From positions 248,001-312,000 of the forward strand of contig NZ_PEND01000005.1 of the NCBI RefSeq assembly GCF_002844195.1: a stretch of 64,000 nt of DNA. Reading direction: 5' to 3'. This DNA comes from Halegenticoccus soli (GTDB lineage: Archaea > Halobacteriota > Halobacteria > Halobacteriales > Haloferacaceae). Positions within the stretch are counted from its first letter, which is position 1. Every line of letters starts with the position of its first letter. Under the pieces are notes generated by a model. That model saw only the letters and a program-made list of their open reading frames with translations, made no database searches and had not been told where the DNA came from. The position numbers and the translations under genes are program-made. This document shows positions 12,120-30,908 of this stretch, piece after piece.

Positions 12120-12437
12120 CTAGCGGTCGCCGCCCGACCCGAACTCGCCGGCGAGGAGGTCGGGAACGTCCTCGGGGCGCACGTCCGAGAACCACTCGTC
12201 TCGCGGTTGGATCGTGAGCGCCGCGCCGCCCTCGCTGCACAGGCCGAGACAGGACGTCGTGCCGACCGACACCGACGACCAGAACAGGTCCCGGTCCTGA
12301 AGCCACCGTTTGACTGCTTCGACGACGGCCTCGCCGTCGGCGTCCGCACAGCAGGCGTGCTCGGAGCCGCGGGTGTTGGTGCAGACGAAAATGTGCGCGT
12401 CGAGCCGATCGCGCTGCCGGTTCGTTTGCCGTTTCAT
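12120..12437 (-). CDS. thioredoxin-like [2Fe-2S] ferredoxin
   Basis: 105 residues: DAHIFVCTNTRGSEHACCAD and SVGTTSCLGLCSEGGAAL give the four-cysteine pattern of thioredoxin-fold [2Fe-2S] ferredoxins. The same domain forms the C-terminus of the CbiX at 28011, tying it to cobalamin synthesis. Its ATG overlaps the cbtA stop by 4 nt, so it is the last gene of a cbtB-cbtA-ferredoxin operon. A likely role is electron supply for a reductive corrinoid step (inference). Confidence 0.85.
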   Translation of the reverse strand: MKRQTNRQRDRLDAHIFVCTNTRGSEHACCADADGEAVVEAVKRWLQDRDLFWSSVSVGTTSCLGLCSEGGAALTIQPRDEWFSDVRPEDVPDLLAGEFGSGGDR

Positions 12438-13165
12438 GGGTCCGCGAGACTCGATCGGTCGACCGCGCTCGCACCGGTGCTGCCGCTGGCGCGTCGGTGC
12501 AACCACCCGTAGCTCGCGGCGATAACGGCCCACAGCGCGGCCTGACTCGACACAACCACTCCCCGGAAGGCGGCGACGAGTTCGCCGGGGACCGCCCCGC
12601 CGTTCGCCCCCGCCGGGGCTGCGAGCGGCAGCGCGACGACCACGACCGCGACGGGAACGGCGGCGACCGCGACGGCGAACGCGCGCCCGCGGGGGGCCGC
12701 CCTTCGGTACCCGAGGATCGACGCCGCCCCGACGAGAGCGCCCAGCGCCATCAACGCGACGTAGATGAGCAGTCGAGCGTCGGTTCCGAGGGCGTGTTCC
12801 GTTCCGGGCGCCGGCGGCGGCAATACCAGCCACGGCACCACCGAGACGGTCAGGAACCCCGCGCCGGCGAGCACGTACGCTTTCATCGTCCCCGTACCCG
12901 GCAGCGACGGTTCGAGAACGTAGTACGCGAGGCCGAACATCCCGCCGAGGAGGATCCCCCAGAGGATGCCGCCTCCGACGCCGACGGCGGCCGTCGTCGT
13001 TTCCGCGACCGCGACCGAGTGCGCGTGATCGTGGCCGTGGCCGTAGTGGACCAGGCTCTCCGCGTGCTCGACGAAGGGATTGACGACGGCGGCCACGAAC
13101 GCGCCGTAGCCGAGGCCCGCGATCGCGCCGGCGGCGACGCCGCGTTCGAGGTACCGCAGGAGCAT
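12434..13165 (-). CDS. cbtA: cobalt transporter subunit CbtA
   Basis: 243 residues with about six hydrophobic segments (for example GAIAGLGYGAFVAAVVNPF, GGGILWGILLGGMFGLAYYV, LIYVALMALGALVGAASIL) and a His-rich loop HYGHGHDHAHS that can bind metal. CbtA is the membrane component predicted to import cobalt in organisms making cobalamin. It overlaps cbtB by 1 nt and the ferredoxin gene by 4 nt, so the three are co-translated. Confidence 0.9.
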   Translation of the reverse strand: MLLRYLERGVAAGAIAGLGYGAFVAAVVNPFVEHAESLVHYGHGHDHAHSVAVAETTTAAVGVGGGILWGILLGGMFGLAYYVLEPSLPGTGTMKAYVLAGAGFLTVSVVPWLVLPPPAPGTEHALGTDARLLIYVALMALGALVGAASILGYRRAAPRGRAFAVAVAAVPVAVVVVALPLAAPAGANGGAVPGELVAAFRGVVVSSQAALWAVIAASYGWLHRRASGSTGASAVDRSSLADP

Positions 13166-13353
13166 CAGTGGCAGGTGATCCCGGCCGCGTGCCGGAAATT
13201 GTGCAGCGCCTCGTGGGCGAGGGGGTCCTGCAGAAACATCAACGCGAAGCCGAGCGCCGCCGCGATTGCGACCCCCGCCGCCACCTGCGGCGGCGACAGG
13301 TCGGCTCGCGCGCGTTCGATCCGGTCGTGGACGGTGTCGTTAGTTGCGGACAT
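13165..13353 (-). CDS. cbtB: cobalt transporter subunit CbtB
   Basis: 62 residues with one transmembrane helix (AAGVAIAAALGFALMFLQD) and a C-terminal histidine cluster (HEALHNFRHAAGITCH) typical of CbtB, thought to present cobalt to CbtA. First gene of the cbtB-cbtA-ferredoxin operon. A TATA-like TTTTAC (minus strand, 13386-13391) lies upstream, with a cobalamin-promoter motif between it and the ATG. Confidence 0.92.
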   Translation of the reverse strand: MSATNDTVHDRIERARADLSPPQVAAGVAIAAALGFALMFLQDPLAHEALHNFRHAAGITCH

Positions 13354-13363
13354 ACAACCTGAT

Positions 13364-13378
13364 CTTCTGTAACGCAAG
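13364..13378 (-). promoter_or_regulatory. cobalamin-promoter motif upstream of cbtB
   Basis: CTTGCGTTACAGAAG on the minus strand, 11-25 nt before the cbtB ATG. It matches CTTGCTATACAGCAA at 21449 in 11 of 15 positions and relates to 15775 and 21415. Placement between the TATA box and the gene would suit a repressor site for a cobalt- or corrinoid-responsive regulator (inference). Confidence 0.4.
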
Positions 13379-13436
13379 TCTAGTTGTAAAACTATCGGTG
13401 CCCGTTCGCGGTCGAGGCGAACTGGGTCCGGCGTCC

Positions 13437-15773
13437 TCACCCGCGGCGATCGGTTCGCCGTCGTTCGGACGAGGCCGAGTCGGCGGCGGTTCGGACGGTT
13501 TCCGCCGTCAGGGAAGAGAGGGGGGCGAGTTCGCCGTCGGTCTCGGCGGCGACGAGCCCCGTGAGGCCGGCGCGGGAGTCGTCGCCGGCGTCGACGACCA
13601 CGACCTCCGCGCCGGTTCGGGCGAGGCGGCGCGCCGCCTCGCGCGTCGCGCCGGTCGGACCGCCGTCCGCCACGTTCGCCCGCCCGTCGGTGACGAGGAC
13701 CACGACGGCCGCGTCGGAGTCCGCCCCGTCGACGACTGACCGGGCGGTTTCGAGGCCGGCGGGGAGCGGCGTCCGGTCCCCGGAGGGGAGCTCTTTGAGG
13801 TGTCGCGCGGCGAGCGTGACGCTCCTCGTCGGCGGGAGGAGAACGTCGGCGTCGTCCCCGGCGAACGCCACGAACGCGACCTCGTCGCGTCGCTGGTAAC
13901 TGTCCCGCAGGAGGTCGAGGACGACGCCCTTCGCCGCCCGCATCGCGGGTCGCATCGAGGCGCTGGCGTCGACGACGAAGACGATCGCGACCGACGCCCG
14001 GCCCGTCCGGACCGATCGCCGCAAGTCCCGCGCTTCGACGCGCGACGCGCCGCGGCTCGCCGCCGATCGAACGGACGCCGCGGCGTCGACGGGGCCCTCC
14101 CCCGACGCCGGTTCGGTGCGGACGCGCGCGCCCCGGTTGTCGGCGCTCGGGGACGCGTTCGTCCGCGAGCCCCCGCTCGGGTCGCCGCTCTCGACGCGCG
14201 GGTCTCCGAGCGTCGGCGCGGTCGCGTCGCCGACGTCGGCCCGCCGCCGGCCGGGGATCAGCGGCGCGGCGCTCTCCCCGCTGTCCGCGTCGCCGGGATC
14301 AACGTCGGAATCGTCCGAGCCGTCGCCGCCGTCGTCCCCGTCCGCCGCGGCGTGGGATCGGTCGGCGGCGGACGAACCCGGCGACCGGGGTCGGTGCCCG
14401 TCGGTCGAATCGCCGTCCTCCGCGGGACGGTCGGATGCCGACTCCGGGGAGGGGTCCGACCCGTCGCCGGCGTCGCGGTCGGTGTCGACCCCGTCGTCGG
14501 ATCCGTCGTGGTCGGCGCTCCCCCCGGAGTCGAGTCCGTCGCGGTCGCACCGATCGTCGCCCGCCGAACCGGTTTCGGAGTCGGAGCCGTCTTCGGATCC
14601 GCGGTCGTCCGTCGTCCCGTCGCCTTCGTCGGCCGCGTCCCCCCGATTACCGTCCCCCGAGTCGCCGTCCTCCGTTTCCGCGCCGGCTCCGTCGCCGAAG
14701 CGATCCGCGAGCAGCTCGTCGAGGTCGGGCGTCTCCTCGAACGGCGTACTTTCGAGCCGGTGCGGGAGGGTGTAGGAGGCGGCTTCGGCGACGTCCGACT
14801 CGATGACGGACGAGCGGCCGTCGAGCGCCGCCAGCGCCCTGGCCGCGCGGGCCGTGGCGATGTCGCCGCGGTGGCCGTCGACGCCCGCGTCGAGACAGAG
14901 TCGAGCGATCTCGCGTTTGAACTCCGCGGGGATCTCGACCGATTTCAGTCGGTCTCGGGCGTCCGCGAGACGTTCTCGGAGGGCGTCGACCTCGTCGGCG
15001 TCGTCCGATTCGTCCTCGACGGAGTCCGATTCGCCCCCGACGGGGGCAAGTTCGTCCACGGCGGCATTCGCCGGGACGGCCCCCTCGCGTCGGTCGAGCG
15101 CTCGGTCGATGATCTCGACGCGGTCGTCGAGATCTCGACACCCCTCGACGCTCGCCCGGAGCGCGAAGCGGTCCCGAAGCTGGGGTCGGAGGTCGCCCTC
15201 CTCCGGATTCATCGTGCCGATCAGCGTGAACGCGGCGGGGTGGGAGACGCTCACGCCGTCGCGTTCGACCGCGTTGACGCCGCTCGCGGCCGCGTCGAGG
15301 AGGACGTCGACCAGGTGATCCTCGAGCAGGTTCACCTCGTCGACGTAGAGGATCCCGCGGTGAGCGCGCGCGAGCAGGCCGGGGTCGAAGTCGGCCTCGC
15401 CGGCCAGCGCGTCCTCGACCGAGAGCGTGCCGACGACGCGGTCGCGCGTCGCGCCCAGCGGCAGGGTCACGAGCGGCGCGGACCGGAACTCGATCGGGGG
15501 ATCCTCGCGCTCCCGGCAGTCCGCACACTGCAGCCGGGGATCGTCGGGCGAACACCCGTAGGGACAGTCCGCGACCGCGCGCTGGTCCGGCAATAGATCC
15601 GCGAGCGCGCGCACCGCGGTCGACTTCGCGGTTCCCTTCTCGCCTACGAGCAGCGCGCCGTCGAGGTCGTCGTCGACCGCCACGGCGAGCAACGCCCGCT
15701 TGAGCTCCTCCTGCCCGACGATCGCCGGGAAGGGGAGCGACGACAGTTTTTTGCCCCCGGCGTTTGCAACCAT
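13437..15773 (-). CDS. ChlI/ChlD-type AAA+ and VWA chelatase subunit (cobaltochelatase partner)
   Basis: 778 residues. The N-terminal AAA+ module has Walker A GEKGTAKST and Walker B ILYVDEVNLL. A long Asp/Glu/Gly/Ser-rich linker (about residues 365-580) follows. The C-terminal von Willebrand A domain has the MIDAS motif VVDASASM. It fuses the I and D subunits of magnesium-chelatase-like enzymes and, being next to cobN, most likely powers cobalt insertion by CobN, replacing CobS/CobT. Divergent from cobN with only 34 bp between start codons. Confidence 0.9.
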   Translation of the reverse strand: MVANAGGKKLSSLPFPAIVGQEELKRALLAVAVDDDLDGALLVGEKGTAKSTAVRALADLLPDQRAVADCPYGCSPDDPRLQCADCREREDPPIEFRSAPLVTLPLGATRDRVVGTLSVEDALAGEADFDPGLLARAHRGILYVDEVNLLEDHLVDVLLDAAASGVNAVERDGVSVSHPAAFTLIGTMNPEEGDLRPQLRDRFALRASVEGCRDLDDRVEIIDRALDRREGAVPANAAVDELAPVGGESDSVEDESDDADEVDALRERLADARDRLKSVEIPAEFKREIARLCLDAGVDGHRGDIATARAARALAALDGRSSVIESDVAEAASYTLPHRLESTPFEETPDLDELLADRFGDGAGAETEDGDSGDGNRGDAADEGDGTTDDRGSEDGSDSETGSAGDDRCDRDGLDSGGSADHDGSDDGVDTDRDAGDGSDPSPESASDRPAEDGDSTDGHRPRSPGSSAADRSHAAADGDDGGDGSDDSDVDPGDADSGESAAPLIPGRRRADVGDATAPTLGDPRVESGDPSGGSRTNASPSADNRGARVRTEPASGEGPVDAAASVRSAASRGASRVEARDLRRSVRTGRASVAIVFVVDASASMRPAMRAAKGVVLDLLRDSYQRRDEVAFVAFAGDDADVLLPPTRSVTLAARHLKELPSGDRTPLPAGLETARSVVDGADSDAAVVVLVTDGRANVADGGPTGATREAARRLARTGAEVVVVDAGDDSRAGLTGLVAAETDGELAPLSSLTAETVRTAADSASSERRRTDRRG

Positions 15774-15807
15774 GCTTGCGCTAATACAACAGAGGTTTAA
15801 AAATTCG
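15774..15807. promoter_or_regulatory. 34-bp divergent promoter, chelatase/cobN
   Basis: Contains CTTGCGCTAATACAACAG (15775-15792), related to the motifs at 13364, 21415 and 21449, and TTTAAAAA (15796-15803). The whole spacer is so short that both genes must share one regulatory site or have promoters extending into each other's coding region. TTTAAAAA is too near the cobN ATG for a normal TATA box of that gene. Confidence 0.4.
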
Positions 15808-20473: not shown

Positions 20474-21333
20474 GCGACGACTGTGACCTCGACGCCGGCC
20501 CGGATCCGGCGACGTTCGCGGCCGCCCGGCCCGAACCACCGAGAGGCGGCGCGGGCGCCGGAGCCGAGGGGCGGCGAGCCCCGCGGGGAGGCGAGACCGG
20601 CCGAGGGAACGGGAGCGCCGTCGAGGCGTCGGAATACCCCGTCTACGTCGTCGGGATCGGCCCGGGGAACCTCGAGTATCTCACGCTCCGCGGCCGGCGC
20701 GCGATCCGCGAGGCAGACGTTGTCGTCGGCTTTTCGACCGTCGTCGGCTTCGTCGAGGAGCTTACCGACGCAGAGTTACTCGCGTGCGGCTACGCGGACG
20801 AGGCCGAGGTGCTGGAGACGTTCGCAGAGCGCGTCGCGGCGGGCGCGACCGCCGCGGCGGTCGCGATGGGGGATCCCAACCACTCGGGGTACCAGTTCGT
20901 GGGGAAGGTCCAGCGGGCCGTCGAGGGAGCGACCGACGGGAGGCCGGTGCGCATCGTCCCCGGGATCTCGTCGCTGCAGGTCGCGGCGAGCCGCGCCCGG
21001 ACGCCCATGGAGGAGGCGTCGTTCGTCACGCTCCACAAGAGCGGCGACCTCGCGGCCGACTTCGCCCGGCTCGCAGACGACGCCGGGGAGCGACACCTGC
21101 TCGTCCTCCCCCGACCGTTCGACTGGATGCCGGGCGACGTCGCCAGGTTCCTGCTGGAGGAGGGAGCCGATCCGGACCTAGAGGCGCTGGTGCTCGAAAA
21201 GCTGACTCACGAGGACGAGTCGATCCACCGATTCACGCTCGCGGAGCTGTCGGAGCACGGCGGCGGTGACGGGAGGGAGGGCACGCCCTTTTCCGACCTG
21301 TCGGTGCTGGCGGTGCGAAGAACGGTAGACTAG
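20470..21333 (+). CDS. cbiE: cobalt-precorrin-7 C5-methyltransferase CbiE
   Basis: 287 residues from GTG 20470, which overlaps the cbiC stop. The first 55 or so residues are a Gly/Pro/Arg-rich extension; the tetrapyrrole methylase domain begins YPVYVVGIGPGNLEYLTL and contains AMGDPNHSGYQF and RIVPGISSLQVAASRA, as in CbiE. It methylates C5 in concert with CbiT, encoded in the next operon. Last gene of the cobN-cbiC-cbiE unit. Confidence 0.9.
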   Translation: MSDDCDLDAGPDPATFAAARPEPPRGGAGAGAEGRRAPRGGETGRGNGSAVEASEYPVYVVGIGPGNLEYLTLRGRRAIREADVVVGFSTVVGFVEELTDAELLACGYADEAEVLETFAERVAAGATAAAVAMGDPNHSGYQFVGKVQRAVEGATDGRPVRIVPGISSLQVAASRARTPMEEASFVTLHKSGDLAADFARLADDAGERHLLVLPRPFDWMPGDVARFLLEEGADPDLEALVLEKLTHEDESIHRFTLAELSEHGGGDGREGTPFSDLSVLAVRRTVD

Positions 21334-21414
21334 CCGTCTCGGGTCCTCGCGCGCGGACAGGGCCCGGCACCTCGGAGCACGAACCGGACCTGTCGGCGGT
21401 CGCCAACAAGTGTT

Positions 21415-21478
21415 CTTGTAATACTGCAACCTCACTTCAGCAACCTTACTTGCTATACAGCAAACAAAATTGTTTTAC
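21415..21478 (+). promoter_or_regulatory. cbiT operon promoter with paired motifs
   Basis: Two similar 16-mers, CTTGTAATACTGCAAC (21415-21430) and CTTGCTATACAGCAAA (21449-21464), are separated by 34 bp, about three helical turns. They precede the TATA-like TTTTAC (21473-21478), which is about 27 nt from ATG 21502, fitting a leaderless transcript. The motif recurs at 13364 and 15775, suggesting common control of the cobalamin genes. Confidence 0.5.
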
Positions 21479-21501
21479 CGGCGGGGGGAGATGCACGGAC
21501 G

Positions 21502-22107
21502 ATGTCCGCTATCGCGCTTCCACACGACGCCAAAGCGGGGCCGACGAAGCCCGAAGTGCGGTCGGTGGTGCTCGGCAAATTCGATCTCGGGCCCGCCGAC
21601 CACTTCGTCGACGTCGGTTCCTGTACGGGTGCCGTGACGATCGAAGCGGCGCGCCGGGCCGGACGGGTTACCGCCATCGAGCGGAAAGCCGACCGGCTCG
21701 GGGTCACAGAAAGGAACCTCGCGGCCAACGACGTCGACGCCGAGGTCGACCTCGTGAACGACGAAGCCCCCGCGGGGATTCCCGACGACGCCACCGCGCT
21801 CTTTCTCGGCGGCAGCCGAAACTTCGAGGCCGTCCTCGATCGGGCGGTCGAATCGGGCGTCGGACGCGTCGTGATGAACGTGTCGCGGCTCGAAGTCGCG
21901 GGTCGGGCGGTCGAGGCCTTCCGCGAGCGGGAACTCCTCGACGAGGTCGTGCAGTTCCAGGTGAGCCGCGGCTACGAACTCGCCGGGGCGACCAGTTTTC
22001 GGTCGGAAAACCCGGTGTACGTGCTGGTCGGTTCGGCGGTCGAAGATGGAGACGGCTCGGCGGACGCCGACGGCGAGGACGCGAGCGGAGAGGTGGTCAC
22101 GCGGTGA
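21502..22107 (+). CDS. cbiT: cobalt-precorrin-6B C15-methyltransferase (decarboxylating) CbiT
   Basis: 201 residues, a class I SAM methyltransferase: GPTKPEVRSVVLGKFDL, motif I FVDVGSCTGAVTIEAA, AIERKADRLGVTERNLAAND, and ALFLGGSRNFEAVLD. This matches CbiT, which methylates C15 and decarboxylates the C12 side chain. First gene of the long cbi operon; its stop overlaps the GTG of cbiL. The acidic C-terminal tail is dispensable-looking. Confidence 0.93.
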   Translation: MSAIALPHDAKAGPTKPEVRSVVLGKFDLGPADHFVDVGSCTGAVTIEAARRAGRVTAIERKADRLGVTERNLAANDVDAEVDLVNDEAPAGIPDDATALFLGGSRNFEAVLDRAVESGVGRVVMNVSRLEVAGRAVEAFRERELLDEVVQFQVSRGYELAGATSFRSENPVYVLVGSAVEDGDGSADADGEDASGEVVTR

Positions 22108-23027
22108 CCCTCTACGGCGTGGGACTCGGCCCCGGCGACCCCGACCTCGTGACCGTTCGCGGCGAGCGCGCCCTCCGGAACGCGGACGTGGTCTACTCGC
22201 CCGGCCGGCTCTCCCGGTCGGTGGCGCTCGAACACGTCCCCGAGGAGAGGATCGGCGACCTCGACTTCCCGATGACCAGAGACGAGGAGGAGCTCCGGCG
22301 GGCCTGGAAGGAGGCCGCCGAAGTGGTCGCCCCCGCGGCCCGCGAGGGGGACGCCGCGTTCGTCACGCTCGGCGATCCCAACGTCTACTCGACGTTCGGC
22401 CACCTCCGGCGGACGCTCTCGGCGTTCCACCCCGACGTGGACGTCGAAGTCGTCCCGGGCGTCTCCGCGATGACGGCCTTCGCGACGGCGCTGGGCGTCG
22501 AGATCGAGGCCGGCGCCGGGCTCTCCCTCCGCGAAGCGGCCGGCGGGGAGAGCCCAGTCGGCCCCGACAGGATGATCCTGTTCAAGGTCACGGACGCCCC
22601 GGCGACCCACGAGGGGCTGGTCGAGGCGGGGTACGACGTACGCTACGGCCGCCGGCTGTTCATGGAGCAGGGCGAGACGGTCGTCACCGACGATCCCGAC
22701 GACATCGCGGACCGGGACTACTACACGCTCGCCTACGCCGAGCGGCGGGATCTCCGAATCGAGTCGGCGACCGCGGCGTTCGACGCGGAACCGACGGAGT
22801 CGTCCGAGGAGGCCGAGGAGACCGAGGAAATCGGGGACACCGAGGCAGCCCCGAGCGCCGAATCGCGCGCCGACGGCGGCGAGGAGACCGGAAGACGCGA
22901 GCGAGCGGACGAGGCGGCGGATCGCGGGAGAACGAACCGGACGGGAGACCCCGAGCGGGCGGACCGGACGATCGAACTCGAACGCGCCGAGGGGTGCGAG
23001 AGCGGCGACTGCGGGGGACACAGATGA
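22104..23027 (+). CDS. cbiL: cobalt-factor II C20-methyltransferase CbiL
   Basis: 307 residues from GTG 22104. YGVGLGPGDPDLVTVRGERA, TLGDPNVYSTFGHLRRTL and VVPGVSAMTAFATALGV identify the C20 methyltransferase. About 85 residues beyond the normal end form an acidic, Glu/Arg/Ser-rich tail finishing CESGDCGGHR, with two cysteines that might bind metal. Four-base overlaps on both sides show tight coupling with cbiT and cbiF. Confidence 0.93.
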   Translation: MTLYGVGLGPGDPDLVTVRGERALRNADVVYSPGRLSRSVALEHVPEERIGDLDFPMTRDEEELRRAWKEAAEVVAPAAREGDAAFVTLGDPNVYSTFGHLRRTLSAFHPDVDVEVVPGVSAMTAFATALGVEIEAGAGLSLREAAGGESPVGPDRMILFKVTDAPATHEGLVEAGYDVRYGRRLFMEQGETVVTDDPDDIADRDYYTLAYAERRDLRIESATAAFDAEPTESSEEAEETEEIGDTEAAPSAESRADGGEETGRRERADEAADRGRTNRTGDPERADRTIELERAEGCESGDCGGHR

Positions 23028-23947
23028 CCGACGGCGAGCGGGAGGCGGTCGGCGGTTCGGCGGCGTCGGAGGGAGATCCGCAGGCGGCGATCGACGCGCG
23101 GGGCGCGCGGCGACGCGAGGAGCCCGACGGACGGATTTTTGAGCGCGCCGCGGGCGACCGCCAGGAGGGGATCCCCTTCGTCGGCGCGGGCCCCGGCGAT
23201 CCGGGGCTTTTGACCGTGACGGGGAGAGAGCTCCTCGAAGAGGCGGACCTCGTCGTCCACGCCGGCTCGCTGGTCAACAGCGAACTGCTCGACGCCTACT
23301 GCGACCGCGCGGAGCTCGTGAACTCCGTCGGGAAGGACCTCGAGGAGCTGATCCCGCTGATGCGGAACGCCTACGAGGACGGCGAGGCCGTCGTTCGGCT
23401 CCACAGCGGGGATCCGTCGATCTACGGCGCGGCGCTCGAACAGATGGACGCCCTGGAGCACGAGGGCGTCCCGACGTACTTCGTGCCCGGCGTCACGGCG
23501 GCGTTCGCGGCGAGCGCGACGCTGCGGACGCAGCTGACGCTAAACGAGGTCGCGAACCACGTGGCGTTCACCCGCCCGCAGGGGAAGACCCTGACCGAGG
23601 AGGAAGACCACGTCAGCGACTTCGTCGGCATGGGCGACGTGACGACGTGCGTCTACCTCGGGACCCACGCCGTCCGCGACACGATGGAGCGGCTGCTCGA
23701 CGACGGCCACGACCCCGACGTTCCGGTCGCCGTGGTCTACCACGCGTCGTGGCCGGACGAGGACGTGCTCGTCGGGACGATCGGAACGATCGCCGACCGC
23801 GTCGAGGAGGCCGGTTACCGCGCCTCCGCGCTCGTCGTCGTCGGCGACGCGGTGACAGGATCGGGGTACGAGCGGTCATTCCTCTACGGCGACTGGGCGA
23901 ACCGCGGTTCGCGAAACGCAGACCGGACGGAAGCGGGTGACGACTGA
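23024..23947 (+). CDS. cbiF: cobalt-precorrin-4 C11-methyltransferase CbiF
   Basis: 307 residues. After an N-terminal extension of about 48 residues, IPFVGAGPGDPGLLTVTGRE, VHAGSLVNSELLDAY, RLHSGDPSIYGAALEQMDAL and VPGVTAAFAASATL are diagnostic of CbiF/CobM. It methylates C11 of the ring. ATG 23024 overlaps the cbiL stop. The N-terminal extension is unusual in length and Arg/Gly/Ala-rich. Confidence 0.94.
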   Translation: MTDGEREAVGGSAASEGDPQAAIDARGARRREEPDGRIFERAAGDRQEGIPFVGAGPGDPGLLTVTGRELLEEADLVVHAGSLVNSELLDAYCDRAELVNSVGKDLEELIPLMRNAYEDGEAVVRLHSGDPSIYGAALEQMDALEHEGVPTYFVPGVTAAFAASATLRTQLTLNEVANHVAFTRPQGKTLTEEEDHVSDFVGMGDVTTCVYLGTHAVRDTMERLLDDGHDPDVPVAVVYHASWPDEDVLVGTIGTIADRVEEAGYRASALVVVGDAVTGSGYERSFLYGDWANRGSRNADRTEAGDD

Positions 23948-23949
23948 GA

Positions 23950-24942
23950 ATGAGCACTGACGAAAACGATTCGACGGCGGACGCAGGTTCGAGCGCGGGC
24001 AGCGGTCACTGTTCGACCCCCGACAGCGACGGCGAGGTCGCAACGGAGATCGCGATCGTCGCCTTCGAGCGGAAGCTGGAGACGGCCGAGGAGATCGCCG
24101 AGGGAATCGGCGACCGCTACGAGCGCGTCGATGTCCTCGAATACCACGGCGACGTCTTCGAGGAGCACTGGGGCGAGTACGACTGCTTCGTCGGCCTGAT
24201 GGCGAGCGGCATCGCGATGCGGAAGACGGCCCACCTGCTCGACGACAAGTGGGAGGACCCGGCGATCTGCGTCGTCGACGAGGAGCTGACCTGGGCGATT
24301 CCGATCACGGGCGGCCACCACGGCGCTAACCAGGTTGCGAGGGACCTGGCGTCGATGGGGGCCGTTCCGGCGATGACGACCGCCTCCGAGGCCGCCGGCA
24401 AGCAGGGGGTCGAAGCGCGCGCGAAGGCGATGGACGCCCACGTCGTCAACGGCGACTCCACCGTGAAGACGAACCTCGCCGTGCTCGACGACGACCTCGG
24501 TCCGGTCGCTCGCCTGGACGGCCCCCGTGCCGTCCTGGTGGGCGACGACGTTACCGTCCTCAGGCGAAACAAGGACCGCGGCGTCGTGATCGGCACCGGC
24601 AGCGTCTCCGGCGCGAGCGAGCGGTCGTTCCTCGCCGCGTGGGAGGAGGCCCTCGGACGGACGGATTACGGCTTCGAGGACGTCGAGTTCGTCGCGACCG
24701 GGACCCGGAAGGGCGACGAGGAGGGGCTGCTCGCGGCCGCCGACGAACGCGGACTCGGCGTCGTCACCTTCGAGAAGGAGACGCTCCTGCGGTACGAGGG
24801 GCCGACGCCCTCAAAGTCGAAGGAGCTGATCGGGTGGCCCGGCGTCTCCGAGGCGTCGGCGATCGCCGGCGGGCGCGAGCACGAACTCGTCCTCGAGAAG
24901 ATCGGGTACGAAACGGAGGTCACGGTGGCGATCGGACGATGA
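23950..24942 (+). CDS. cbiG: cobalt-precorrin-5A hydrolase CbiG
   Basis: 330 residues. CFVGLMASGIAMRKTAHLL, ITGGHHGANQVARDLASMG, VVIGTGSVSGASERSF and KELIGWPGVSEASAIAGG match the N- and C-terminal domains of CbiG, which opens the delta-lactone and releases acetaldehyde during anaerobic ring contraction. Only 2 nt separate it from cbiF and its stop overlaps cbiH. Released acetaldehyde could be a substrate for an oxidoreductase such as AOR (speculative). Confidence 0.93.
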   Translation: MSTDENDSTADAGSSAGSGHCSTPDSDGEVATEIAIVAFERKLETAEEIAEGIGDRYERVDVLEYHGDVFEEHWGEYDCFVGLMASGIAMRKTAHLLDDKWEDPAICVVDEELTWAIPITGGHHGANQVARDLASMGAVPAMTTASEAAGKQGVEARAKAMDAHVVNGDSTVKTNLAVLDDDLGPVARLDGPRAVLVGDDVTVLRRNKDRGVVIGTGSVSGASERSFLAAWEEALGRTDYGFEDVEFVATGTRKGDEEGLLAAADERGLGVVTFEKETLLRYEGPTPSKSKELIGWPGVSEASAIAGGREHELVLEKIGYETEVTVAIGR

Positions 24943-25811
24943 GCCGCGAGGAGTCGCCGGCCGCCGGCGAGGGGACGCCAGACGCGTACGGCACGCTCTA
25001 CGTCGTCGGCATCGGCCCCGGCCTCCCGGACCACGCGACGAAGCGGGCCAGGGCGGTCATCGAGTCCGCCGACTGCGTGATCGCTTCGAGCCTCTACCAG
25101 GCGTTCCTGCGCGACGACGGCACCCTGCCGCCGGAGGACCGGACGGACGAGGAAGGCATCGCGACCCGCGAGGACGGCTCCGAGCAGGAGATCGTTCGCT
25201 CGACGATGGGCCGGCAGATCGAACTCGCCCGGGAGGCGTTCGATCGCGTCCGCGAGGGCGAGACCGTCGCCCACGTCTCCGGCGGCGATCCGTCCGTCTA
25301 CGGCAAGTCCGACCTCGTCTTCGCGGTGGCCGAGGAGGAGGGCGCAACCGACGTCCCGATCGAGATCGTCCCCGGCCTCACGGCGGCGCTGGGCGCGGCG
25401 GCGAACGTCGGCGCGCCGCTCTGCAACGACTTCTGCACCGTCTCGCTGTCGGACAAGTGGCGCGGCTGGGACGAGATCGAGGAGAAGCTGCGCGCGGCGG
25501 CGGTGAGCGGCTTCGTGATCGTCCTTTACAACTGCTGGCGCAACTACGAGCGGGCCGTCGACATCGTCCGCGAGGAGCGGACCGACGACGCCTACGTGGC
25601 GATCGTGAACGACGCCGGCAGGGGAGACGCCGGGCGCAACGGGGAGGGCCACGTCGTCACGACGCTCGGCGAGGCCGCGGACCACGACGGCGAGGTCTCG
25701 GGGATGGGCACCTCGCTGATCATCGGCAACCACGAGACGAAAACCTGGCGCAACGACGATCGAACGTACCTCGTCACCCCGCGAGGCGGGCGTGACGTCG
25801 ACGACTTCTGA
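24939..25811 (+). CDS. cbiH: cobalt-precorrin-3B C17-methyltransferase CbiH (copy 1)
   Basis: 290 residues. LYVVGIGPGLPDHATKRARA, VAHVSGGDPSVYGKSDLVFA, VPGLTAALGAAANVGAPLCN and the CbiH-type FVIVLYNCWRNYERAVDIV are present. CbiH methylates C17 and promotes ring contraction. A second CbiH paralog follows immediately, as known for haloarchaeal clusters; division of labour between them is not evident. Overlaps cbiG by 4 nt. Confidence 0.92.
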   Translation: MSREESPAAGEGTPDAYGTLYVVGIGPGLPDHATKRARAVIESADCVIASSLYQAFLRDDGTLPPEDRTDEEGIATREDGSEQEIVRSTMGRQIELAREAFDRVREGETVAHVSGGDPSVYGKSDLVFAVAEEEGATDVPIEIVPGLTAALGAAANVGAPLCNDFCTVSLSDKWRGWDEIEEKLRAAAVSGFVIVLYNCWRNYERAVDIVREERTDDAYVAIVNDAGRGDAGRNGEGHVVTTLGEAADHDGEVSGMGTSLIIGNHETKTWRNDDRTYLVTPRGGRDVDDF

Positions 25812-25813
25812 CG

Positions 25814-26938
25814 ATGAACACGGACACCGACGCGGACGACGCGGAATCGACATCGAACTGCGGCGCGACGACCGGCGAGGCCGAATCGGAGCCCTCGGGG
25901 TCGTCACCGTCGGCCTCGGGTTCGAAGTGCGGGGCCTCGATCGCGGAAGCGGACTCCGCGGCCGCATCGAGCGCCGAAACGGCCGGTTCGGACTCCCCGA
26001 GCGGATCGAAGTGCGGCGCGGGTACGTCGGGGTCCTCGGCGTCACGATCCCCCGCGTCGAAGGCGAACTCCTCGACGGCCGGCTCGAAGTGCGGCGCTTC
26101 GAGTTCGAAAAAGCGGGAGAAGACGAAGGAGAAGGTCGGCTCGACGGTGGACGACTTCGACGCCGAGCCGGGGCGACTCGTGGCGGTCGGTCTCGGTCCA
26201 GGCCACCCGTCGGGGATGACGGAGCGCGCGCGAGCGGCACTGCTCGCGGCCGAGCACATCGTCGGCTACACGACGTACATCGAGCTGCTGCCGGACGAGA
26301 TCACGGAGCGGGCGGACGAGCTGTACGACACGCCGATGTGCGGCGAGGTCTCGCGCACCGAGGAGGCGATCGACCGCGCGCTCGCCGGCAACGACGTGGC
26401 GATCGTCGGCAGCGGCGATCCGAACGTCTACGCGCTCGCCGGGCTCGCGCTCGAGATTCTCGAATCCAAGGGGGCGACCGCGACGATGGTCGACTTCGAG
26501 GTCGTGCCGGGCGTGCCGGCGGCCCAGTCCTGCGCGGCGCGTCTCGGCGCGCCCCTGGTCAACGACACCGTCTCCGTCTCGCTGTCCGACCACCTGGTTC
26601 CGATGCCGGAGATCGAATCTCGGCTGCACGCGGCGGCCAAGGAGAGCTTTACGATCGTGATCTACAACCCCTGGAGCCGCAAGCGCCGGGCGAACTTCGA
26701 GAAGTGCTGCGAGATCCTCCTCGCCCACCGCGATCCAGCCACGCCGGTCGGCATCGTCCACGGCGCCGGTCGGGATGACGAACGGGCGAGGATCGTCGAA
26801 CTCCGGGAGCTCGAGGAGCTGGGCGAGACAGAGCTCGTCGACATGACGACGACCATCGTCGTCGGCAACGAGGAGACGTACGTCTGGGACGACCGGATGG
26901 TCACGCCCCGAGGGTACGAGACGAAGTACGACTACTGA
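25814..26938 (+). CDS. cbiH: CbiH paralog (copy 2) with Cys-Gly-Ala-repeat N-terminal extension
   Basis: 374 residues. Residues about 115-374 are a C17-methyltransferase domain (VAVGLGPGHPSGMTERARAA, IVGSGDPNVYALAG, VPGVPAAQSCAARLGAPLVN, FTIVIYNPWSRKRR). The first 105 residues are Ser/Ala/Gly-rich and carry four copies of S(N/K)CGA, at about residues 14, 37, 67 and 90. The single-cysteine repeats could form a metal-binding, perhaps cobalt-binding, tail. This is inference; low-complexity extensions are common in halophiles, but regular cysteines are not. Confidence 0.9.
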   Translation: MNTDTDADDAESTSNCGATTGEAESEPSGSSPSASGSKCGASIAEADSAAASSAETAGSDSPSGSKCGAGTSGSSASRSPASKANSSTAGSKCGASSSKKREKTKEKVGSTVDDFDAEPGRLVAVGLGPGHPSGMTERARAALLAAEHIVGYTTYIELLPDEITERADELYDTPMCGEVSRTEEAIDRALAGNDVAIVGSGDPNVYALAGLALEILESKGATATMVDFEVVPGVPAAQSCAARLGAPLVNDTVSVSLSDHLVPMPEIESRLHAAAKESFTIVIYNPWSRKRRANFEKCCEILLAHRDPATPVGIVHGAGRDDERARIVELRELEELGETELVDMTTTIVVGNEETYVWDDRMVTPRGYETKYDY

Positions 26939-27014
26939 GACGACTGAGGAAACGAAGTACGGCTACTGAAGGGACGAACCACGACTACCGAACGATGACG
27001 ACACCACTACGACG

Positions 27015-27281
27015 ATGCCACGGTACGAAGTGACGGTCGAAAAGGCGGCCTGCGACGGCGTCTTCGCCTGTCTCACCCGCGACCCCCGATTCGTCGAGGG
27101 CGGGGACGGACTGGCCACGATCGACCCCGACGCGGACCCCGTCTACGACTGCGAAGGCGAGGTCGCGGACACACGAACCCGCGTCGTCGCCGCCTTCGAC
27201 GACGACCGGATCGACGAGGCGAAGCGGGCCGCCGCGGCCTGTCCGACCGACGCGATCGCCGTCCGGGAGGTGGACGAGTGA
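27015..27281 (+). CDS. small ferredoxin in the cobalamin operon
   Basis: 88 residues: MPRYEVTVEKAACDGVFACL at the start and AKRAAAACPTDAIAV near the end, with another Cys in YDCEGEV. The CPTDAI motif and spacing resemble single-cluster [3Fe-4S]/[4Fe-4S] ferredoxins. Its stop overlaps the start of the next gene by 4 nt. It may donate electrons to reductive steps of ring synthesis. The 76-bp spacer before it contains a partial duplication of the cbiH copy 2 3' end (ACGAAGTACGGCTACTGA). Confidence 0.8.
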   Translation: MPRYEVTVEKAACDGVFACLTRDPRFVEGGDGLATIDPDADPVYDCEGEVADTRTRVVAAFDDDRIDEAKRAAAACPTDAIAVREVDE

Positions 27282-27964
27282 GCGAGCGACCGACGGAGAC
27301 GGCGGCGGTCGAGCCGCCCGCGGATCTGCTCGCCGGCCGTCCGACGACGGCGTACTTCTGGGGCCACGTCGCCGGCAGCGGAGACGTCGCCGACGACGGT
27401 CTCGAAGTCGTCACCGGCGACGAGGAGTCAGCCGAGACGCTCGCAGCCATCGCGGGCGGCGACCTCGATCGCGGAACGAACGTGCGCGAGTACGCCCACG
27501 ACGCGTCGATCACGCGGACCGAGGAGGAGTACGCGCTGACTGTCGAGCGCGAGGACCTGTTCGGGCGGAGCGGCTCGCTCGGACTGCCGGTCGACGGGCG
27601 GGGAAACTACCGGTTCGCCGCGTTCGCGGGACACGACCGGGAACTCCTGCGCGGGCTGTTCGAGGGCTGCGGGACGATCTGTTTCAAGTCGTCTACCGGC
27701 ACGGTCGGCGTCTCGTTCGTCCACGACGACGGGAATCTGCTCGCGCTCGTCCGGGAACTGATCGCCGACTGCCCGGTCGAGGCGATGACGGGCGACCTCT
27801 CGAAAACGTCCTCGGGCGGCCGCTGGTTCAGCGTCGACGACGCCGACGCGGCCGACTTCGGAACCTGGCTCTACGAGGGCGCCGAGGAAACGGGGCTGTA
27901 CGCCCCGAGCCGGCGGCGAAAGCTCGTCAGGAGTCTCGAACGGGCGGAGGCGTTCGACGCCTGA
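27278..27964 (+). CDS. LAGLIDADG-fold-like protein of the cobalamin operon
   Basis: 228 residues. No catalytic family is obvious, but two segments look like LAGLIDADG helices: TAYFWGHVAGSGDV with the following EVVTGDEESAETLAAIAG, and ELLRGLFEGCGTICF with GVSFVHDDGNLLALVRELI. The end WLYEGAEETGLYAPSRRRKL resembles the LY-x-A...RK tail of homing endonucleases. The acidic catalytic residue closing each motif is replaced (Ser, Cys), so DNA cleavage is unlikely. By analogy with WhiA, it may be an exapted DNA- or RNA-binding regulator. Start GTG 27278 overlaps the ferredoxin stop. Confidence 0.6.
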   Translation: MSERPTETAAVEPPADLLAGRPTTAYFWGHVAGSGDVADDGLEVVTGDEESAETLAAIAGGDLDRGTNVREYAHDASITRTEEEYALTVEREDLFGRSGSLGLPVDGRGNYRFAAFAGHDRELLRGLFEGCGTICFKSSTGTVGVSFVHDDGNLLALVRELIADCPVEAMTGDLSKTSSGGRWFSVDDADAADFGTWLYEGAEETGLYAPSRRRKLVRSLERAEAFDA

Positions 27965-28010
27965 GCCGGAACCGCACCGATCGGCCCGATCGCGCCGAAC
28001 CGTCGATACC

Positions 28011-29243
28011 ATGAGACCACCGATGCACGACACAGACGCCATCGCAGCCGCGTTCGACGACGAGGCCGTCCTGCTGATCGGCCACGGCTCCCGCCGCGAG
28101 CGGTCGAACGAGCAGGTCAGAGAACTGGCCGCCGGCCTCGAGTCGCGGCTCGGGATTCCGGTCGACGCGGCGTTTCTCGAGCTGGCCGAGCCGGCGATCG
28201 ACGAGGCGTTCGCAGCGCTGTCGACGGTCGCGAGCGGCGTGACGGTCGTCCACTGCTCGCTGTTCGCCGCGAGCCACGTCAAAAACGACGTCCCGCTCGC
28301 GATCGAACGGGCGCGAGCGGCGCACGACGTCGAGATACGCAACGGCGCCCACCTCGGGATCCATCCCGCGATCCTGGATCTGCTCGACGATCGGGCTGCC
28401 GAGGTCGAACGCCGCCTGGACGCGGACCGCGAGACGGACGACGTCGCCGTCGTCCTCTGCGCGCGGGGGTCGAGCGATCCGGACGCCAACGGCGACGTTC
28501 ACAAGCTCGCCCGCCTGCTCTACGAGGGGCGGTCGTTCTCGCGCGTCGAGGCCTCGTTCGTCGGCGTCACCGAACCGCGGCTGGAGGAAACCCTGCACGG
28601 GCTGTCGAAACACCGCCCGGACGCCGTCGTCGTCCTGCCGTACATGCTCGGCGACGGCGTCCTCACCCGGCGGGTGCGCGACTGGACGGACGAGTTCGAG
28701 GCCACGTACCCCTACGTCGACGCGGCGGCGGGCGATCCGCTCGGCACCGACTCCCGACTGCTCGACGTCTTCGCCGACCGCTGGCAGGAGGCCCGATCGG
28801 GGGGCGTCGAGATGTCCTGCGACACGTGCAAGTACAAAGTCGACCTCGAGGGGTACGAGGAGGACGTCGGCGGCGCCCGCGCGATGCTGCGGGCGCTGAC
28901 CCACCGGGAAGCGCACGCGGATCGCGGCGACGTCGACGAGGAGCCGCACGCCCACGACGCGCCCGAGAGGCACGTCGTCGTCTGCACGAACCGGACCTGC
29001 GCGGACATGGGCTCGCCCGCCGTTCTCGAACGGTTGCGGCAGGCGGCCCGCGACTCCGAGCGCTGCGACGCCCGCATCACGCGGTCGTCCTGCCTCGGCC
29101 GCTGCGGCGACGGCCCGATGGTCGCCGTCTACCCCGACGGCGTCTGGTACGGCGGCGTCGACGCGGCGGACGCCGAGCGAATCGTCTCGTCCCACCTCGA
29201 CGGGGACCGAATTGTGAGCGACATCGTGGACCGGACGCTGTGA
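28011..29243 (+). CDS. cbiX: sirohydrochlorin cobaltochelatase CbiX fused to a [2Fe-2S] ferredoxin domain
   Basis: 410 residues. Residues about 15-265 are two CbiX modules (AVLLIGHGSRRERSNEQV, VTVVHCSLFAASHVKNDVP, VAVVLCARGSSDPDANGD, VVVLPYMLGDGVLTRRV). A Cys-containing link SCDTCKYKVDLEGY follows, then a thioredoxin-fold [2Fe-2S] domain (VVVCTNRTCADMG, TRSSCLGRCGDGP). CbiX inserts cobalt early in the anaerobic route. The ferredoxin tail matches the stand-alone protein at 12120. ATG 28011 or 28023 may be the start. Confidence 0.93.
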   Translation: MRPPMHDTDAIAAAFDDEAVLLIGHGSRRERSNEQVRELAAGLESRLGIPVDAAFLELAEPAIDEAFAALSTVASGVTVVHCSLFAASHVKNDVPLAIERARAAHDVEIRNGAHLGIHPAILDLLDDRAAEVERRLDADRETDDVAVVLCARGSSDPDANGDVHKLARLLYEGRSFSRVEASFVGVTEPRLEETLHGLSKHRPDAVVVLPYMLGDGVLTRRVRDWTDEFEATYPYVDAAAGDPLGTDSRLLDVFADRWQEARSGGVEMSCDTCKYKVDLEGYEEDVGGARAMLRALTHREAHADRGDVDEEPHAHDAPERHVVVCTNRTCADMGSPAVLERLRQAARDSERCDARITRSSCLGRCGDGPMVAVYPDGVWYGGVDAADAERIVSSHLDGDRIVSDIVDRTL

Positions 29244-29250
29244 TCACACC

Positions 29251-29619
29251 ATGAGCTGTCACGAAATCGAAGCACTCAGACTCGGACTGATGAACGTCCT
29301 CGGAACGGGGGACAGACACGCCCGCGAACACGCGGAGAAGGAACTCGAAGGCCACCTCGACGGGCCCGTCGGCGCGCTCGCGGCGGCCGAAAGTCTCGCA
29401 GAAATCGAGCGGCACCTCGACGCGGCGCTGGTCGACCTCGAGGAGGAGGTCGCGGCAATGGACTCGGAGAATCCCGAGTACGACTACGCGCGGGGGCGAC
29501 TGCTGGCCGTCCGCGACGCCGAACGGGCCGTGCGTCGTCTGACCGCACAGGGGGAGAGCGTCGTCGACGGCCTCGGAGACGCCCACGACCTGCTCCACGA
29601 GACGTTTCCCGAGGAGTGA
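29251..29619 (+). CDS. DUF3209 family protein
   Basis: 122 residues: MSCHEIEALRLGLMNVLGTG, then largely helical, acidic sequence with ALVDLEEEVAAMDSENPEYD. DUF3209 proteins recur next to cbiX in haloarchaeal cobalamin clusters but have no known activity. Cys3 and His4 close to the start may bind metal. Overlaps the next gene by 4 nt. Confidence 0.85.
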   Translation: MSCHEIEALRLGLMNVLGTGDRHAREHAEKELEGHLDGPVGALAAAESLAEIERHLDAALVDLEEEVAAMDSENPEYDYARGRLLAVRDAERAVRRLTAQGESVVDGLGDAHDLLHETFPEE

Positions 29620-30908
29620 CCGTGTCCGACAGCGCACCGAACTTCCGCCGAATTCCGCTCGGCGAGATCGACAGCGCCCGGAGCAGACACATGTGGACGC
29701 GTTCGAGCGTCCACGTCGCGGACGATCTCGTCGCCGCGGGCGAGTGGGACGGAACGGTCGCGGCGTTCGACCGGGACACGCTCGAACCGCGCTGGCGGGC
29801 CGAACACCCAGATCACGCGGTCGGTCTGGACGCGTTCGGCGAGACGGTGGTCGTCGCCGGACGCGGAACCGCGGGGACGATCGCGGCTTACGATCGGGAG
29901 ACCGGCGAACGTCGGTGGTCGTACGAGACGAGCGAGGACATCGGCGAACCGACGAAGGACAGCGTCTTCTCCCTCCCGTACGTCGTCGCGCTCGAAGCGG
30001 CCAGCCGAACCGAAACGAGGGGAGGCGGGGACGACACCCTCTACGCGACGGCCCGCCGGTACGAACGGGAGGGCGGAGCGCGGCGCTGGCGCAGCGCGGT
30101 TCTCGCGTTCGACGCCGACGGCGGCGTCCGCTGGCGGTACGAGACCGACGCCTCGCCGATCGCGCTCGCGCTCGACGGCGGGGGCGACCGACTCGCCGTC
30201 GGGTACAACCGGTGCGGGGGCGAGCACGACGACGGCCTCGTCGTACTCGACGCCGAGTCGGGCGAGCCGGTCTGGCGCTGGGACCCCGGAACCGCCGGGG
30301 ACCGCCGGGTCGGCGACGTGTCCTTCGACGGGGATCGCGTCGCCGTCGCGAGCCACGGCGACAAGCGCGGCTACCTGCTCGGCCCCGGCGGCGAGGAGCG
30401 GTGGCGGGTCGAGCTCGCGGTCGAAGCCGAGATCGGCGACGAGACGCTGTACGCGTACCCGAACCACGTCCATGCCGGGAACGACCGCGTCGCGTTCGTG
30501 ACCGGGAACACCTACGCGAAGGAGAGCCGCGAGACCGATAACCGCCACCCGAACGAACACCGGATCGCCGCCTTCGACGCCGACGGCGAGCCGGCGTGGG
30601 ACGCGTCCGTTCGCGGCTTCGTCCACGGACTCGCGGCCGACGGCGGCGCGATCGTCGCGCCGTGCGCCCAGAACTTCCGCGTCCGCGATCCGGAGACCCA
30701 CGCGGTCCGCCGGTTCGACCTCGCGACCGGCGAGAGCGGCGGCGAGCGCGTCGACGGCATCGCGACGGCCGCGGCCGTCGACGGCGACACGATCGCCGTC
30801 GTCGAAGAACCGATCGCGTACCACGACGGCGGCGCTCACGGCGAGTACGCCCTCCGCGTCGGCTCGTTTCCGTCTCTCCGGTCGGGACAACGTCGGTCGA
30901 ATCGATAG
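29616..30908 (+). CDS. PQQ/WD40-type beta-propeller protein
   Basis: 430 residues from GTG 29616, overlapping the DUF3209 stop. Repeated blades of the type GTVAAFDRDTLEPRWRAE, GTIAAYDRETGERRWSYET and GLVVLDAESGEPVWRWDPG indicate a PQQ-like propeller. No signal peptide is visible, so it is cytoplasmic. It ends the cobalamin operon and may be a scaffold or corrinoid-handling protein; there is no direct evidence for a reaction. Confidence 0.82.
   Translation: MTVSDSAPNFRRIPLGEIDSARSRHMWTRSSVHVADDLVAAGEWDGTVAAFDRDTLEPRWRAEHPDHAVGLDAFGETVVVAGRGTAGTIAAYDRETGERRWSYETSEDIGEPTKDSVFSLPYVVALEAASRTETRGGGDDTLYATARRYEREGGARRWRSAVLAFDADGGVRWRYETDASPIALALDGGGDRLAVGYNRCGGEHDDGLVVLDAESGEPVWRWDPGTAGDRRVGDVSFDGDRVAVASHGDKRGYLLGPGGEERWRVELAVEAEIGDETLYAYPNHVHAGNDRVAFVTGNTYAKESRETDNRHPNEHRIAAFDADGEPAWDASVRGFVHGLAADGGAIVAPCAQNFRVRDPETHAVRRFDLATGESGGERVDGIATAAAVDGDTIAVVEEPIAYHDGGAHGEYALRVGSFPSLRSGQRRSNR

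Follow-up and report, generated by a model that had tools for sequence, protein, structure and literature searches.

The LAGLIDADG proteins that are known to have been domesticated act on nucleic acid, as is the case for the maturases. The catalytic residue of a LAGLIDADG motif is located at its position 8. WhiA and HO are further domesticated members that act on nucleic acid, as is described in PMC3781837 and PMC7282813, respectively. With WhiA (DUF199; 3hyi, 3hyj, 8dy7), the haloarchaeal protein discussed here shares the two-repeat LAGLIDADG domain, the lost catalytic residues, the vertical inheritance and the immobility. Unlike WhiA, it has no helix-turn-helix (HTH), lies in a B12 cluster and carries Cys/His at the old active site, and the evidence argues against a role in reading the operator nearby. 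A near full-length fold match is also obtained with archaeal homing endonucleases (I-Tsp061I, I-DmoI) and inteins (PI-PfuI, TliVMA), at Z 13.5-15.1 and next to the similarity to LAGLIDADG_3. In contrast to these, the haloarchaeal protein is free-standing, contains no splicing domain, has lost the catalytic Asp, bears acidic saddle strands and occupies a constant locus.

On the cobalamin side, CobW is the cobalt chaperone of the late-insertion pathway. The job proposed for it (bringing cobalt to the chelatase, with a Cys-based site, according to PMC7689651) is analogous to the one considered below. CobW is, however, a GTPase of a different fold, and the haloarchaeal LAGLIDADG protein is without GTPase features. 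In Haloferax volcanii, the genes are ordered as cbiX1 (HVO_B0054), HVO_B0055, HVO_B0056 and cbiH2 (HVO_B0057). Both HVO_B0055 and HVO_B0056 are listed there as "function unassigned", and EC 2.1.1.195 and EC 1.3.1.106 are given as open (PMC8305020).

The window analyzed here is a stretch of 64,000 nucleotides from Halegenticoccus soli. The module of interest and its surroundings comprise the following features:

21502-26938, forward strand: cob operon, preceding the module (cbiT, cbiL, cbiF, cbiG, cbiH1, cbiH2), as ORFs whose names are taken from likeness to the gene order in PMC8305020, not from domain scans of each ORF
27015-27281, forward strand: 4Fe-4S single-cluster ferredoxin (Pfam Fer4_15), directly upstream and overlapping by 4 bases; gene order makes it the counterpart of HVO_B0056
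27278-27964, forward strand: predicted LAGLIDADG-fold protein, catalytically degenerate, 228 aa; counterpart of Haloferax HVO_B0055 by gene order (PMC8305020)
27347-27388, forward strand: LAGLIDADG motif 1, residues 24-37, TAYFWGHVAGSGDV, where S34 replaces the catalytic Asp
27497-27499, forward strand: codon of the invariant His74, in the predicted turn that joins strands 3 and 4 of repeat 1
27638-27685, forward strand: LAGLIDADG motif 2, residues 121-136, in which C131 replaces the catalytic Asp and C135 is invariant
27869-27922, forward strand: C-terminal LYEGAEETGLYAPSRRRK segment, in which Y199, L207, R212 and K215 are invariant
28011-29243, forward strand: cobaltochelatase CbiX, with a thioredoxin-like [2Fe-2S] ferredoxin domain at its C-terminus; gene order makes it the counterpart of HVO_B0054
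29251-29619, forward strand: DUF3209 protein, which travels with the ferredoxin/LAGLIDADG/CbiX module

The 228-aa ORF uses GTG as its start codon, and its start overlaps the stop of the ferredoxin ORF. The initial annotation had pointed to this overlap and had quoted two motif strings and a C-terminal LYEGA...RRRK segment, all of which are present as quoted (motif 1 as listed above, motif 2 as ELLRGLFEGCGTICF at residues 122-136 and the C-terminal segment at residues 198-215). The order cbiH2, ferredoxin, LAGLIDADG protein and cbiX matches the one in Haloferax, and the window protein is therefore most likely the counterpart of HVO_B0055. The latter occupies the same place, between cbiX1 and HVO_B0056, and is probably the same protein, with orthology deduced from the gene order. 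The Haloferax relatives are 54-57% identical, and plasmid-borne relatives are annotated as "cobalamin biosynthesis protein" or as hypothetical. A literature search for LAGLIDADG or homing endonuclease together with cobalamin in haloarchaea or Haloferax returned nothing. The cob proteins of the window are closer to those of another family (LAGLIDADG protein 74%, CbiG 86%) than to those of the same genus (G008; 53% and 78%). This suggests that the cob cluster may have been acquired from a Natrialbaceae-like donor, where the family name is deduced from record titles.

The two-repeat LAGLIDADG layout had been proposed from the letters of the window, and a predicted structure without the LAGLIDADG saddle was named as the outcome that would speak against it. 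The AlphaFold model, for which 50 relatives were aligned (out of 76 in the family, from which L060 and L059 had been excluded as chance matches), does contain the saddle (pLDDT 89.8, pTM 0.87). It consists of an alpha-beta-beta-alpha-beta-beta repeat that occurs twice and of a C-terminal helix (residues 210-227) at the chain end. All 50 matches listed by Foldseek against the PDB are titled as LAGLIDADG proteins. WhiA comes first (E 3.3e-7), and I-Tsp061I, I-DmoI, inteins and the bI3 maturase are among the structural matches. VIA-align superposes the model on I-Tsp061I with Z 15.1 (rmsd 3.5, 184 residues) and on WhiA with Z 14.9 (rmsd 3.0, 179 residues), the latter with about 14% identity. A second member, the most diverged relative (from G179, 36% identical, and 30-39% identical to the 28 others in its own alignment), is predicted to have the same topology (pLDDT 89.6) and finds the same kinds of structural matches.

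At the sequence level, the Pfam family LAGLIDADG_3 (PF14528) is matched by 27 of the 50 aligned members at E<=10 (best: 2.7e-5). The match runs through motif 1 in L002 (E 3.8e-4) and through motif 2 in L074 (E 2.2e-4), and the eight matches listed in detail are all under the curated cut-off. The window copy alone had no match in Pfam, NCBIfam or PDB sequences in a single-sequence search, and the family profile returned two chance matches only from the PDB sequences. Taken together with the model, the two-repeat LAGLIDADG fold can be regarded as settled as far as prediction allows.

At L061:10362-12443, a LAGLIDADG intein that carries an HTH insert splits a dCTP deaminase gene; the diverged family member lies some 3 kb away. 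The family profile does not match this intein significantly (0.4% probability), and sequence alone thus does not place the family beside it. At L233:1844-5398, two inteins seem to be contained in an ORF that resembles the small subunit of replication factor C.

The catalytic position of motif 2 is occupied by Cys in 49 members and by Ala in one, so that Asp is found in 0 of the 50. In motif 1 the same position is more variable (Asp 21, Ser 17, Gly 6, Asn 5, Ala 1). It had been claimed that the terminal acidic residues of the motifs are replaced, with loss of nuclease activity as a consequence. The window copy does show the replacement (S34, C131), as does motif 2 throughout the alignment, and with it the loss of the nuclease residues, but motif 1 keeps its Asp in 21 of the 50 members. 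Acidic residues at position 8 in the two motifs at once, as in a homing endonuclease, are seen in none of them. In the alignment, E129, C135 and H74 are invariant (50/50), while C131 is present in 49 and H149 in 47 of the 50 members. The saddle strands of repeat 2 are better conserved than those of repeat 1 (0.84 vs 0.62, p 1.7e-5). Their mean net charge as a family average is -3.6 in repeat 1 and -1.1 in repeat 2, with strand limits for both averages taken mostly from the predicted model. The pI of the whole protein is 4.4, as acidic as that of the cob enzymes.

Nine pairwise codon comparisons gave dN/dS values of 0.11-0.32, which indicates purifying selection. Signs of mobility (an intron or intein context, scattered sites) were not found; the protein has a constant place in the operon, with its neighbors present in 80/80 and 78/78 loci. 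An active homing endonuclease, or a recent remnant of one, would explain the fold, the motifs and the Asp retained in motif 1 of 21 members. With motif 2 stripped of its Asp in all 50, a constant operon place across the order and purifying selection, this explanation is hardly credible. The protein thus belongs to a haloarchaeal family that has lost its cleavage residues and is kept by selection as a constant part of a gene module (ferredoxin, LAGLIDADG protein, [2Fe-2S] CbiX and DUF3209) within the cobalt-early B12 cluster. That it has the LAGLIDADG fold and has been domesticated is near certain. Reuse of the fold inside an archaeal cobalamin operon and the likeness to a WhiA-type domestication, both put forward in the initial annotation, are upheld by the fold matches and the lost residues.

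In searches with one query, the LAGLIDADG protein was found in 65 of 170 genomes of the taxonomic family and in 137 of 293 genomes of the order. A sample of the phylum, searched in the same way, contained it in 10 of 148 genomes, all ten within the order. CbiG is present in 67/170 (family) and 144/293 (order) genomes. The family is thus haloarchaeal and tracks de novo B12 synthesis (137 vs 144 of 293), with distant relatives elsewhere being possible. In a pattern scan of contigs, the 80 kept loci (the best 80 of 169 relatives) all bear haloarchaeal titles. When the genome tables are compared by reading, eleven CbiG-positive genomes have no LAGLIDADG protein (G004, G005, G144, G178, G180, G205, G246, G269, G276, G328, G387), of which G144, G246, G276 and G328 are only 72-89% complete. 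The protein occurs without CbiG in G100, where the cluster is decayed, and in G268 (88% complete). A search of the 170 genomes with the family profile revealed no copy in G004 or G005. The next-best profile matches are weak and mostly lie in very long frames; one of them, in G003, looks by its sequence like an intein-containing small subunit of replication factor C. Two weak extra matches were rejected, namely G231:C151, whose ORF reads as enoyl-CoA hydratase-like, and G383:C1, which has no blast match.

The absence of the protein from some clusters bears on whether it could be a missing pathway enzyme, either the cobalt-precorrin-5B methylase (CbiD) or the cobalt-precorrin-6A reductase (CbiJ). 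Both enzymes are haloarchaeal gaps, and HVO_B0055 is among four candidate genes (PMC8305020). The CbiD and CbiJ families were each found in 0 of 28 genomes, including G004 and G005, while the positive controls matched. However, G004 and G005 retain the cbi operon and CbiG without the LAGLIDADG protein, CbiD or CbiJ, and the gap must be filled otherwise if B12 is made there. The protein was rejected as a CbiD/CbiJ stand-in on this ground. It has neither a methylase nor a dehydrogenase fold, and we know of no LAGLIDADG enzyme of either kind. A role as CbiD or CbiJ is accordingly quite improbable. The absence of both families throughout the 28 genomes leaves the cobalt-early gap unfilled, also in clusters without unassigned genes beside cbiX.

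The initial annotation had further suggested that the protein might be a regulator, or an RNA- or corrinoid-binding protein, of the pathway, and had listed DNA sites for a binding check. The pattern given there, with a 2-base gap, CTTGCNNTACAG, occurs exactly twice in the window, at 13367 (reverse strand) and 21449 (forward strand); 11 of 100 shuffles reach two occurrences at <=1 mismatch. The sites at 15775 and 21415 match just the wider palindrome TTGYNNTANNRCAA. The 4.6-Mb genome contains three occurrences of this palindrome, none outside the cobalamin cluster. The palindrome was designed after the sites had been viewed, and its three matches are therefore not independent evidence, which comes instead from tests in other genomes. 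Elsewhere, the literal pattern with a 3-base gap matched at chance-like sites only. The sites in the window are:

15776-15789, unstranded: operator copy between the divergent chlID and cobN
21416-21429, unstranded: palindromic operator, distal copy, upstream of cbiT
21450-21463, unstranded: palindromic operator, proximal copy, 34 bp from the distal copy
21456-21476, forward strand: putative core promoter element of the cob operon, conserved and overlapping the proximal operator

In 58 other loci, 59 sites of the TTGYNNTANNRCAA type (<=1 mismatch) fall into the 135,307 positions that have no match to any of 18 cluster proteins, and 9 into the 388,406 positions inside such matches; the former, counted as "non-coding", take in other genes. 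A site is located within 260 bp upstream of cbiT in 35 of the 43 cbiT-bearing loci; relative to the match start, its usual positions are -53 to -55 and -87 to -89. A conserved AATTGTTTT element adjoins the proximal site. The joint pattern TANNNCAANCNNAATTGTTWT is found in 63/170 and 137/293 genomes, all of them CbiG-positive as read from the tables. It also lies upstream of cbiM in L215, L216, L220, L223, L224 and L225 (CbiM being named from the start of the ORF). Judged from these sequence patterns, the palindrome and the core element look like a dedicated cobalt/B12 control element across haloarchaea. The CbtA/CbtB cobalt transporter genes are located at 12434-13440 of the window, and a weaker operator-like half, CTTGCGTTACAG, lies upstream of them at 13367 (reverse strand). 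In G098 (L133, L128), and likewise in G099, two CbiG genes (63-64% and 42-44% identical to that of the window) were seen in separate partial cob clusters with the operator element at each.

A DNA-binding regulator of cobalt/B12 genes like WhiA, perhaps sensing cobalt or redox state via the Cys/His center, would fit the fold common to WhiA and the DNA-binding homing enzymes, and a dedicated operator is indeed at hand upstream of cbiT, cobN/chlID and cbiM. Of the 293 genomes, 137 have the protein and 137 the element, the two sets being mostly shared, and no regulator gene is seen by eye beside cbiMNQO in L223. However, the element is kept without the protein in five CbiG-positive genomes, before cbiT in G004, G005 and G178 and before cbiM in G180 and G205, with G004 and G005 lacking a copy even by profile. 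The protein is thus not required for the upkeep of the element, and the regulator is something else or not solely the LAGLIDADG protein; as sole operator reader it was rejected. No HTH domain was detected in it, either by Pfam (window copy and 50 members) or in the model. WhiA binds DNA through its HTH, and its LAGLIDADG domain alone gives no footprint, according to PMC3781837. A groove that reads a palindrome would be expected to be basic and to be constrained in both halves, so that the acidic, unequal repeats argue against such a function. This is not proof, haloarchaeal proteins being generally acidic. The listed sites therefore do belong to a real operator, whereas their regulation by the LAGLIDADG protein did not stand up against the five genomes without it and the net negative saddle strands. 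The protein is likely not the reader of the nearby operator, or is dispensable for it, and we consider a regulatory role unlikely. Binding of RNA in the manner of LAGLIDADG maturases, for example of the cob transcript, would agree with the bI3 maturase being among the structural matches. The acidic saddle and the lack of any Rfam element in 21000-30000 make it very improbable.

The gene neighborhood points in another direction. In 80 named loci (the best 80 of 169 relatives), the ferredoxin lies upstream of the LAGLIDADG protein in all 80. In the loci of this set that are long enough, CbiX follows downstream in 78/78, and its [2Fe-2S] domain and DUF3209 are each found in 77/78. A separate sample has the ferredoxin adjoining the protein in 56 of 58 cases. 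Conversely, six of six CbiG-positive clusters without the protein (L125, L126, L216, L217, L218, L220) have no ferredoxin, no [2Fe-2S] domain and no DUF3209. Of seven clusters that lack the protein (L125, L126, L216-L220), five carry a His-rich CbiX tail, and a His-tailed CbiX-like ORF is found in 0 of the 80 loci with the protein, four of which have other His-rich frames. The clusters that lack the protein represent few lineages and cannot count as independent cases. In G269 (L219:10706-11641), a second, His-tailed CbiX takes the place of the protein straight after the ferredoxin, and the ferredoxin, the [2Fe-2S] CbiX and DUF3209 are retained. The His-rich region of Bacillus CbiX-L, beside its Fe-S center, has been proposed to store and deliver metal (PMC7689651). 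In G004 and G005, neither the protein nor a His-tailed CbiX was found in the stretch read, and the either-or of the two is therefore incomplete.

Co-occurrence and linkage with CbiX, as for a cobalt partner, are thus observed, with G179 as the unlinked exception. The G179 relative lies outside the cob cluster, between two cation-efflux genes and with a rhodanese; a ferredoxin is located next to the cob genes on a different contig, and no cbiX was found in the stretch of that cluster that was read. In G098 the protein and the ferredoxin are located at separate cob loci.

The ferredoxin and the [2Fe-2S] domain also raise the possibility of a binder of cobalt-corrin intermediates, or a redox partner working with the ferredoxin, that lets the oxygen-sensitive "anaerobic" pathway run in air. 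Their company is regular, and the ferredoxin is retained even where it is unlinked (G098, G179). Halobacterium makes cobalamin aerobically through the anaerobic branch, according to PMC3403918. The terminal oxidase COX1 is present in 20/20 tested genomes with the protein and missing in 4 of the 11 CbiG-positive genomes without it (G178, G180, G205, G328). However, three of these four represent one genus, and the other seven (G004, G005, G144, G246, G269, G276, G387; some are drafts) do have COX1, for which reason oxygen was rejected as the full explanation of the absence. G269, moreover, has the ferredoxin without the LAGLIDADG protein. Among the genomes with neither CbiG nor the protein, COX1 is missing in 1 of 15. 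The COX1 pattern fits an aerobic add-on, and seven of the eleven genomes do not need that reading. Corrin binding or redox partnership of this kind is, in our view, unlikely.

Taken together, the neighborhood, the His-tailed CbiX alternative and the cation-efflux context in G179 suggest cobalt or redox support of the chelatase. We tentatively favor a domesticated LAGLIDADG protein that supplies cobalt or electrons to CbiX, a reading that draws on the neighborhood and the invariant Cys/His and that may well prove wrong. In this mechanism, the protein would neither cut nor primarily read DNA any longer. Its remodeled saddle center would instead bind Co(II), or pass electrons. The candidate ligands would be Cys131 (at the former catalytic Asp of repeat 2), Cys135, His74 and usually His149, which may lie together as judged from the fold register. 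The metal (or the electrons) would then be handed to CbiX, thereby aiding cobalt insertion. The presence of Cys135 and His74 in 50/50 members and of Cys131 in 49/50 counts in favor of the cobalt role, as does the better conservation of the repeat 2 strands, whereas the absence of His149 from 3/50 counts against it. Gene neighborhood is evidence of shared use, not of mechanism.

In a broader and rather unlikely scenario, a selfish DNA-cutting enzyme would have become a cobalt or corrinoid handler. The saddle site at which two Asp held Mg would have been rebuilt with Cys/His to take up cobalt and, with its own ferredoxin, the protein would let the cobalt-early ("anaerobic") B12 pathway of haloarchaea run in air. 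To our knowledge, there is no case of the LAGLIDADG fold being used for metal or cofactor handling rather than for nucleic acid. If the protein does supply CbiX, the fold would have a new use, in an order-wide family whose tie is to cobaltochelatase and not to DNA. One of the four genes without an assignment in the haloarchaeal B12 cluster gains a candidate that is named and can be tested, and the conserved B12/cobalt operator makes the regulator of the pathway searchable.
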